Shown here: positions 51,701 to 53,139 of the stretch, in pieces
Position numbering within the stretch: position 1 is the first letter of the stretch
Layout of the letters: each line of letters opens with the position of its first letter
NCBI RefSeq assembly: GCF_003932715.1
Contig: NZ_CP020700.1
Span: forward strand, 2,006,501 to 2,070,500
Direction of reading: 5' to 3'
Length of the DNA: 64,000 nt
Source of the DNA: Streptomyces tsukubensis
Lineage (GTDB): Bacteria > Actinomycetota > Actinomycetes > Streptomycetales > Streptomycetaceae
Position numbers and translations under genes: made by a program
Notes under the pieces: generated by a model
Told to the model about the DNA's origin: nothing
Database searches by the model: none
Seen by the model: only the letters and a program-made list of their open reading frames with translations

Positions 51701-52483
51701 TCAGTTGCGCCGGAGCGCGTGGAGCCCGGCCCACTGTTCGGCGGTGAGGTGCTTGGGCAGGGCGGTCGGTGCGATGCGGTGGGCGCGCAGCCAGTCGTCG
51801 ATCCGCCGCCGGGACAGTTCGGGGGCGGCGACGGCGACGATCCGGGCGAGTCCGCGGCCCTTGCCGTTGAACACCCGGGCGACCAGGTCCTGGTAGTCGG
51901 CCCGGTCACGTTCGGCGACCAGCGGCCGGTCGCGGCGGACCATGGTCAGCACTCCCCCGTCGACGGTGGGCCGGGGCCGGAAGGCGGTCGCGGGCACCCG
52001 GCCGACCAGGCGGAACGCGTACCAGGGCCACCACTGGGCGGTCATCAGGGTGGCACCGCCGACCCCGGCCCGGCGCCGGGCGACCTCCCACTGCACCAGC
52101 AGCACGGCATCGGTCCAGTCCGGGGAGCGCAGGATCCGGCGGAGCATCGCCGTCGTCTGGTGGAAGGGGAGGTTGCCGACCAGTACATGGGGACCGGCCG
52201 GGGCCCGGTAGCGGAGGAAGTCCGCCGTGACGACGGTGGTCGGCCGTCGCGTCCGGCGGCGCAGTTCGGCGGCGCGGCGTCCGTCGATCTCCACGGCCGT
52301 CAGCTCCCGGCCGAGCCGCTGGAGCGGCAGAGTCAGGGCGCCGCCGCCGGGGCCGATTTCGAGGATCGGGCCGTGGGTGCCGGCCACGAGCCGGGTCATG
52401 GTGTCGATCGTGGACCGGTCGACGAGGAAGTTCTGGCCGAGCTCGTGCCGACCGGGATGGGGATGGGGGTGGTGCGAGTGCAA
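51701..52483 (-). CDS. Erm-family 23S rRNA (adenine-N6) methyltransferase
   Basis: Methylates A2058-type adenine in 23S rRNA, giving macrolide-lincosamide-streptogramin B resistance in characterised members. The product is 260 aa. The start appears to be TTG 52483 (H-S-H-H-P-H-P-H-P-G-R-H-E-L-G-Q-N-F-L-V), with GGAG 10 nt upstream. SAM motif E-I-G-P-G-G-G-A-L-T is near residue 43, the Erm catalytic motif N-L-P-F-H near 104, and V-Q-W-E-V-A-R-R-R-A-G-V-G-G near 130. N-L-P-F-H rather than N-L-P-Y-N separates it from KsgA, and the sequence resembles corynebacterial ErmX in several blocks. A 15-codon leader peptide lies 108 bp upstream, so inducible expression is likely. Confidence 0.9.
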   Translation of the reverse strand: MHSHHPHPHPGRHELGQNFLVDRSTIDTMTRLVAGTHGPILEIGPGGGALTLPLQRLGRELTAVEIDGRRAAELRRRTRRPTTVVTADFLRYRAPAGPHVLVGNLPFHQTTAMLRRILRSPDWTDAVLLVQWEVARRRAGVGGATLMTAQWWPWYAFRLVGRVPATAFRPRPTVDGGVLTMVRRDRPLVAERDRADYQDLVARVFNGKGRGLARIVAVAAPELSRRRIDDWLRAHRIAPTALPKHLTAEQWAGLHALRRN

Positions 52484-52493
52484 GGGACTGTGT

Positions 52494-52606
52494 CTCCGCG
52501 GCTTCGAGGTGAGCCGGGCAGCACGAGGAGGCCGCCCGGCGCGTACGCGCTGAAGCGGCGAAAGCCCTGGAAGAAGGGAGGGGATCCGCCGCTAGACGCG
52601 GCGGAG
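52494..52606 (-). promoter_or_regulatory. Translational attenuator of the erm gene
   Basis: On the mRNA (minus strand) TCCGCCGC (52605-52598) pairs with GCGGCGGA (52592-52585) around the leader stop. The leader codons CTC-CGC (CTCCGC, 52606-52601) can also pair with GCGGAG (52499-52494), which contains the erm ribosome site. A further stem is GCCGGGC/GCCCGGC (52540-52534/52519-52513). A ribosome stalled at MRLR would cover the CTCCGC and free the ribosome site. Mechanism inferred from known Erm leaders. Confidence 0.6.
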
Positions 52607-52639
52607 GCGCATCGCTGCGATACCTGCTACTCCACACAT
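52592..52639 (-). CDS. Erm leader peptide MCGVAGIAAMRLRRV
   Basis: A 15-codon ORF (ATG 52639, TAG at 52594-52592) reads M-C-G-V-A-G-I-A-A-M-R-L-R-R-V. The MRLR motif is that of the ErmDL-type leaders, in which the Arg-x-Arg element stalls the macrolide-bound ribosome. Its stop lies 108 bp before the erm start. A promoter just upstream would make the mRNA almost leaderless at this ATG. Too short for standard gene calling. Confidence 0.75.
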   Translation of the reverse strand: MCGVAGIAAMRLRRV

Positions 52640-52647
52640 GGGACGGC

Positions 52648-52685
52648 ACGTTACCGCCGGCCGCTCGACCCGGCCAACGGGTTTT
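52648..52685 (-). promoter_or_regulatory. Candidate erm promoter, WblC/WhiB7-like
   Basis: Minus strand: AAAA (52685-52682), then TTGGCC (52677-52672) as -35 and GTAACG/TAACGT (54-49/53-48) as -10, spacing 17-18 bp, start near 52641. An A-rich stretch a few bases before the -35 is the mark of WhiB7/WblC-dependent antibiotic-response promoters. The remaining gap, 52690-53139, shows G/C-rich sequence only, with no credible gene. Confidence 0.45.
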
Positions 52686-53139
52686 CCCGCGAGCGCCCTG
52701 GGCTGGTGCCGGCCCCGGGGCACGGACACCTGCGAGCCGGGCTCGGAGCGAACACCGTCCCCGCAGGGCCCGCCTGCCAGAAACCGGGGGCGGGATACCC
52801 GGGGCTGCCCGGTGGGGCTCGTCCCGCCCGGACAGGAGGGGCGGAATGCCGCTGTCCGGGCCGGGGAGCGGCGGGCGGCGGATGCCCGGGGCTCCCGCAG
52901 GGGAGCAGCCCGGCGCGGAAGCAGGGCCGCGTGCGACCGGGCCGGCCGTGCGGTCCGGGGTGAGGTGCCGCTGCCGGGAACGGCGTCCGTGGTCCCGGCC
53001 CCCAAGCACCCGGGGCGGGGCCGGTGCTCCGGGTCGGCGTCGTACGGTCGCGGGGGCAGGGTGCCCGGGGCCCGCCGCGGCCGGGTGCGGGGCACCGGGG
53101 ACCGGCGCGGCGGGTCGGGGCCGTACGCGTGGGGGCGGG

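Follow-up and report, generated by a model that had tools for sequence, protein, structure and literature searches.

The window, by which we mean the whole 64,000-nucleotide stretch of Streptomyces tsukubensis DNA analysed here, carries on its minus strand an erm gene preceded by a 15-codon open reading frame, with 108 nt between the leader stop and the TTG start of erm. The gene product was identified as an Erm by the NCBIfam profile NF000499 (269 bits against a cut-off of 212) and also scored 114 bits against Pfam RrnaAD PF00398 (cut-off 24), in agreement with a preliminary description of this DNA that had placed a short leader ahead of an Erm methyltransferase gene. The genes and codons concerned are:

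51701..52483, minus strand: erm, 23S rRNA A2058 methyltransferase, 260 codons, TTG start at 52483
52592..52639, minus strand: leader ORF, MCGVAGIAAMRLRRV and stop, 15 codons plus TAG, ATG at 52639-52637 and TAG at 52594-52592
52601..52609, minus strand: basic-X-basic codons CGC CTC CGC (Arg-Leu-Arg, codons 11-13), assigned by analogy with ErmDL

The Shine-Dalgarno sequence (SD) of erm is GCGGAG at 52499-52494 on the minus strand. The source genome is 8.02 Mb and contains, besides erm, one distant relative with 33% identity that is probably the housekeeping 16S enzyme. Close Erm homologs (E ≤ 1e-60) were present in 4 of 199 genomes of the genus, its own counted, and are accessory within it. On the same contig, the closest KR domain within a frame of more than 1,000 residues is about 1.4 Mb away from erm. 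This agrees with the absence of a macrolide cluster from view noted at the outset, and macrolide self-resistance tied to a cluster is not supported. The leader contains MRLR, recognised earlier as the stalling motif of ErmDL, with Arg-Leu-Arg at codons 11-13. In ErmDL the stall is reported to fall on Arg6-Leu7-Arg8 as Arg8 enters the A site (PMC8298421), and by analogy we predict a stall with Leu12 in the P site. The start of the leader (52622-52639) is also complementary to the start of erm (52463-52486) at −15.6 kcal/mol; across 78 loci this pairing was only mildly better for a locus's own partners (−11.2, against −9.4 over all pairs, mean rank 0.36).

Complementarity and folding divide the RNA from the leader to erm into four segments and an internal hairpin:

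52598..52605, minus strand: segment 1 (TCCGCCGC), within the leader
52585..52592, minus strand: segment 2 (GCGGCGGA), beginning at the last base of the stop codon, able to pair with segment 1 or 3
52552..52564, minus strand: segment 3 (CTTTCGCCGCTTC), able to pair with segment 2 or 4
52513..52540, minus strand: internal hairpin between segments 3 and 4, arms 52531-52540 and 52513-52522
52494..52505, minus strand: segment 4 (GAAGCCGCGGAG), holding the erm SD core GGAG at 52494-52497

The hairpin across the leader stop that had been pointed out previously proved to be the 1:2 pairing, a perfect 8-bp match between TCCGCCGC (52605-52598) and GCGGCGGA (52592-52585). The unconstrained minimum free energy (MFE) structure of the window RNA contains 1:2, the internal hairpin and 3:4, with the SD inside 3:4. 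When the footprint of a stalled ribosome was blocked, 2:3 formed instead and the SD left 3:4, keeping only short, weak local pairs; its unpaired probability rose from 0.037 to 0.272. Folding with and without a ribosome, proposed as a check in the preliminary description, thus gave the exchange of 1:2 and 3:4 for 2:3 and a cheaper opening of the four SD bases (3.49 kcal/mol free, 2.13 stalled), but opening the whole ribosome site became harder, from 6.79 free to 7.94 with the P site four codons before the stop (−4). The window's SD opening cost was 0.8–0.9 with the P site at −6 and 2.1–2.5 at −4, and at −3 it was 1.14, 3.73 and 5.37 for footprint edges of +13, +15 and +17, respectively.

We compared the upstream regions of the best 80 of 165 Erm relatives, four loci from genome searches (L085, L106, L108 and L112) and the window, 85 in all. 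An open frame followed by a stop and CGGCG or CGGTG was found in 81 of the 85 (79 unique leaders), and CGGCGG stands immediately 3′ of the stop in 67 of the 79. The remaining four are L053, which is degenerate, L054, in which the element is absent and the leader runs into erm, and L067 and L069, which carry leaders ending in RLRSR and IRLRRA at the stop but a variant segment 2. At L053, L054 and L079, all single actinobacterial loci, the leader or attenuator before erm appears to have decayed or been lost naturally. Of the 79 unique leaders, 73 kept a basic residue at each of positions −5 and −3 relative to the stop, which answers the proposed comparison with other erm leaders; the fixed triplet is missing in L004, L039, L048, L073, L078 and L079, although L073 and L078 have RLR one codon closer to the stop. 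The fixed spacing between triplet and stop fits a stalled footprint that ends at about the stop codon. Within the 73 triplet leaders, X is any of nine residues and the first basic codon may be AGG, CGG, CGC, CGT, CGA or AAG, so that it is the charge pattern, not the DNA, that is conserved. The exact MRLR occurs in seven of 81 leaders, or eight if L074 is counted. As read from these sequences, the conserved candidate stalling signal is basic-X-basic and not exact MRLR. The rare codon AGG makes up 39 of the 70 first Arg codons, against 4.2% of 2,941 Arg codons in the 81 erm genes, with loci treated as independent.

Family-wide, the stretch between start and motif is nearly free of charge and consists of 33% Ala and 15% Cys. 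In ErmDL, large residues right before the motif are reported to impair erythromycin stalling or possibly cause drop-off (PMC8298421), and this intolerance may explain the composition of the stretch here. Cys occupies position 2 in 37 of 79 leaders, and six loci (L017, L023, L027, L031, L036 and L042) have very long Ala/Cys/Ser-rich leaders, such as MSACSCACAACACAACAAMTRIRRP. The first basic position is Glu in the leader of plasmid erm(46) and Asp in that of L004. Since the ErmDL triplet is reported to be dispensable with erythromycin (PMC8298421), an acidic first position need not mean lost function. At L006 the promoter, leader and start of the attenuator are tandemly duplicated, with Glu taking the first basic position of the second leader. 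Judged by these sequence features, the window leader is one copy of what appears to be a widespread actinobacterial attenuator.

Immediately upstream of the leader lies a promoter of the WblC/WhiB7 type:

52681..52686, minus strand: AT-rich box GAAAAC, 3 bp ahead of the −35 element (regular-expression match and published consensus)
52672..52677, minus strand: −35 element TTGGCC (regular-expression match)
52648..52653, minus strand: −10 element TAACGT, after a spacer of 18 and 8 nt from the leader ATG

The WblC consensus is given as GAAAWY, 3 bp, TKGMNN, 16–19 bp, TANNNT (PMC7157823). GAAAAC-CCG-TTGGCC-18-TAACGT, 8 nt before the ATG, fits it save for one −35 base (G at the M position), which bears out the WblC-like promoter proposed earlier; a plain sigma-70 scan found no promoter at this site. 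In Streptomyces coelicolor, transcription from WblC promoters is reported to start 7–8 bp after the −10 element (PMC7157823), and the window transcript is accordingly predicted to start at the leader ATG or 1 nt before it. With the first box base and the M position of the −35 freed, a WblC-type promoter was recognisable at 40 of 81 loci; with GAAAWY kept and only M freed, it was found at 27 of 81, and each search gave none in 20 shuffles. The −10 element sits 7 nt before the start codon in 36 of the 40 loci, and in 39 of 40 the start codon placed by the promoter shares its reading frame with the leader stop. Because of this spacing, the start distance known from S. coelicolor and the in-frame starts, the leader is probably leaderless at promoter-bearing loci; this covers the promoter-matched loci, and about half of all loci are without such a match. 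The near-leaderless start suggested for the window is supported, but the design is typical of the family and not, as had been thought, unusual. The same genome encodes a WblC homolog (L121) with EPWGVWGGE and an RGRP AT-hook, and the promoter match suggests that the window promoter may be under WblC control.

We next consider the RNA across the family. The mean unpaired probability of the SD hardly changed with the stalled footprint (0.195 to 0.216); this measure being too blunt, SD opening energies were used. The mean opening cost in 78 loci was 6.45 kcal/mol without a ribosome and 5.05 with the P site on X (−4) (Wilcoxon 4e-8, loci treated as independent); in 42 of 78 loci it dropped by more than 1 relative to the free state, and in six it rose by more than 1. 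For a footprint edge of +15, the mean was 4.3–4.5 when codons −7 to −5 occupied the P site, 6.25 at −3 and 6.8 at −1, while the −4 and −3 costs were 4.6 and 5.4 with the edge at +13, and 5.6 and 6.8 at +17. In these models there is a step in opening cost, and its place depends on the footprint edge assumed.

The two alternative pairings differed in how far they stood out from shuffled sequence. The 2:3 duplex averaged −21.1 against −17.4 for shuffles, and in 30 of 77 loci no more than 1 of 30 shuffles equalled it, whereas the 3:4 duplex was weak by this test (−14.8 against −14.0; 6 of 77 loci). A second test of 3:4 gave a moderate signal (own −17.6, distant partners −15.3, shuffled −14.0), and the SD was paired within 3:4 in 64 of 78 own combinations against a fraction of 0.85 in cross-locus ones. 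A cross-locus test of 2:3 (own −22.6, distant −19.0) was discounted as evidence, because segment 3 had been picked as segment 2's own best partner. The mutual overlap of the two best partners carried no signal (0.49, against 0.47 shuffled). The GC-rich 1:2 stem hardly varies in sequence. The same is true of the part of segment 3, in the leader-erm interval, that pairs with the SD core CGGAG, and these 3:4 core pairs (columns 57-132 and 58-131) equal 1:2 in invariance. RNAalifold recovered 1:2, the internal hairpin and the CCG:CGG core of 3:4 unaided. Covariation was not above shuffles (the score was reached in 276 of 500 and both-side changes in 432 of 500), and the conservation of this RNA is one of invariance, not covariation. 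Segments 2, 3 and 4 have other sequences in the erm(X)-like and mycobacterial representatives examined, and still fit both ways.

To scan genomes we used a 24-nt pattern built from the erm leaders. Across 392 genomes of the genus, 24 contained a match, with 27 sites in total. A short leader was present at every one of the 14 sites before erm; at the other 13 we found no Erm and no convincing combination of leader and segment 3. The class, searched in 246 genomes, yielded 11 sites, five before erm (its own counted), four that looked like chance and two before MFS genes. Our assumption that the non-erm pattern sites were all chance was wrong in part: L125 and L130 have short leaders (MPKSDRLRRS and MPASDRLRRP) before an MFS efflux gene and are apparently MFS attenuators. 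Among the non-erm sites, L103, L104 and L111 have an in-frame ATG; L111, with MCGDPPARVRRE before an ABC-transporter-like ATPase, no visible segment 3 and E = 0.018 in the erm-only model described below, was taken as chance.

In the family of that MFS host, MFS homologs (E ≤ 1e-100) occur in 12 of 120 genomes, and 10 of the 12 have the element with leaders of 10 codons, such as MPESDRLRRP, VPESNDLRRL, VPESDRVCRP and MPLTEEQAAL. We distinguish 14 MFS-A loci (L125, L130, L133–L141, L157, L160 and L163) from two LmrA-like MFS-B loci (L161 and L164). The MFS-A protein is DHA2/EfpA-like and reached no curated efflux-subfamily cut-off; L161 scored 455 bits against the LmrA model, below its exception cut-off of 850. 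MFS-A leaders have Pro2 (14 of 14), Ser4 (11 of 14) and Asp or Asn5 (10 of 14), with the basic triplet in 6 of 14, and the MFS-B leaders are MSAASCAAACAAVTRTLR and MCSASAAAAAAVTRTPR (pattern VTRTxR towards the end). The mean SD cost of the 16 elements was 6.61 kcal/mol free, 5.52, 4.63, 4.56 and 5.34 with the P site at −7, −6, −5 and −4, and 7.62 at −3, and so was low only at −7 to −4; it fell more than 1 below free in 9 of 16 elements at −6, 10 of 16 at −4 and 1 of 16 at −3. In 12 of 16 the start is preceded at 6–8 nt by a −10 element, and 5 of 16 show the WblC-type pattern. Within the stall window, the MPxS[D/N] residues would occupy the early positions, and these may be where another drug acts.

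Covariance models supported a shared element. One built from 16 related elements, with the window excluded, scored 52490-52611 at 94.7 bits (E = 2.6e-17), with the next-best site in the window at E = 0.042. Rfam gave no match at gathering score in 52400-52900, its only hit being PtaRNA1 with 18 bits against 47. An erm-only model (R2) gave 52 matches in 51 of 62 further erm loci at E ≤ 0.01, and found the 14 MFS-A and two MFS-B elements with E from 1.7e-10 to 0.006. Among 16 chance-pattern controls, whose selection already guarantees segments 1 and 2, the best E was 0.018, and at two MFS genes lacking the element R2 had no match up to E = 1. A joint model of erm and MFS elements (R1) had 21 matches in 20 of 394 class genomes under strict search filters that may miss weak matches. 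All 21 precede erm (13) or MFS genes (8), and at least three (its own, L147 and L148) are or repeat sequences used to build the model.

Several known systems resemble parts of this architecture. The ErmC attenuator follows a four-segment scheme. Its stalled ribosome is reported to remodel the mRNA and expose the erm SD (PMC10219788, PMC13410324), and we propose by analogy that the SD of the window would be exposed likewise; the window differs in that segment 1 falls within the last part of the leader, a further conserved hairpin stands between segments 3 and 4, and the peptide is another one. With ErmDL/ErmD the window leader has the MRLR stall motif in common, at codons 10-13 and not 5-8, and its residue before Met, Ala9, belongs to the Ser, Ala or Gly reported as the only ones tolerated there (PMC8298421). 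Its probable leaderless start, its WblC-type promoter and the family-wide Ala/Cys/Ser-rich run before the motif set it apart. Five loci that we take to be erm(X)-like (L066, L070, L077, L080 and L082) have RLR[S/T]R before the stop followed by CGGCGG, as in the window family, but are without a good WblC-type promoter match and differ in segment sequences, with 2:3 and 3:4 pairings made from other sequences in L066, L070 and L077. For erm(X) of corynebacteria it has been proposed that a short leader gene might give erythromycin-inducible attenuation (PMC3350403). The promoter type is common to erm genes of the WblC/WhiB7 regulon (lrm, erm(37) and erm41), for which the portions of the reports consulted mention no comparable leader (PMC7157823, PMC10727445); erm(37) of Mycobacterium tuberculosis has been called an exception to uORF control (PMC4128351). 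A 2024 survey of erm uORFs is reported to have found divergent leader peptides and no universal pattern (PMC11264731). In the literature searched, with subscription papers largely outside it, we found no description of the actinobacterial leader family or its MFS branch, and we do not claim that none is in print. The single locus is a further member of the known erm attenuators, and the new part would be a family with apparently exchangeable peptides on one RNA.

Taken together, these features make it probable that the locus is a drug-operated translational attenuator, ErmC-like with an ErmDL-like sensor, probably leaderless and WblC-driven. That the stalled MFE keeps the SD in weak local pairs counts slightly against it. 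The leader, the complementarities and the conservation of the family all speak for the inducible-looking attenuator of the preliminary description, and it is from such sequence features that we infer stalling, induction, the transcription start and WblC dependence. WblC, itself induced by ribosome inhibition, would drive a transcript whose first base is that of the leader AUG or an adjacent one. A ribosome unhindered by drug would translate the leader through to its stop, 1:2 and 3:4 would form and the erm SD would be buried. A macrolide bound in the exit tunnel would make the ribosome stall: Leu12 would occupy the P site, Arg13 would fail to react, and the ribosome would cover segment 1 and end at about the stop codon. 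Segment 2, left free, would then pair with segment 3, releasing the SD from 3:4 so that Erm could be made.

Control might instead be transcriptional, with the 1:2 or 3:4 stem halting RNA polymerase unless the leader ribosome stalls, as in Bacillus subtilis and whiB7 leaders. Two observations speak against this: there are no terminator-like sites (stem plus T run) in 52470-52720, although an actinobacterial terminator without a U-tract may yet be present, and the 3:4 SD core pairs are as invariant as the 1:2 stem, which suits control at the SD. The GC-rich, nearly invariant 1:2 stem is itself what such a mechanism would want, and both WblC (PMC12421871) and mycobacterial whiB7 (PMC10727445) are said to use uORF-coupled attenuation, yet overall we judge transcriptional attenuation unlikely.

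The conservation of the leader bears on a second possibility, that erm is simply WblC-driven and the leader a relic without stalling function. WblC is reported to raise the mRNA of an Erm(O)-type gene of S. coelicolor (PMC7157823), and the triplet or element has been lost at L048, L053, L054 and L079. However, the charge triplet stands at its fixed place in 73 of 79 leaders, and at 39 of 40 loci the start set by the promoter and the leader stop belong to one reading frame; neutral drift would not preserve place and frame in this way, and we give a relic only a slight chance. A similarly slight chance is left to a direct 1:4 pairing, in which the leader itself hides the SD and its translation alone opens erm. 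The preliminary description had the leader codons CTC-CGC pairing with GCGGAG of erm, and in the window this is possible: the match of CTCCGC to GCGGAG is perfect and the 20-nt arms are 75% complementary. It is not a conserved switch, however, as only 7 of 80 loci have CTCCGC among their last six leader codons, the X codon is free to vary and the MFE structure takes 3:4 instead.

For the wider family, the translational attenuator may be an interchangeable chassis, one RNA switch in which the segments (and the WblC-type promoter, where recognisable) stay while the sensor peptide is swapped with the gene: basic-X-basic peptides with erm, MPxS[D/N] with EfpA/EmrB-like pumps and Ala/Cys-VTRTxR with LmrA-like pumps. 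Different ribosome drugs would trip it at different codons within the permitted stall window (P site −7 to −4). On this proposal we are evenly divided; that the basic triplet is present in 6 of 14 MFS-A leaders as well counts slightly against it. What the comparison brings out is one architecture, conserved across many actinobacterial genera and common to erm and efflux pumps, that joins WblC-type transcription control with putative drug sensing on a probably leaderless ORF. The co-evolution of sensor peptide and RNA switch, and macrolide sensing by a leaderless ORF, can be tested on it, and the element model may be used as a search tool for unannotated inducible resistance.
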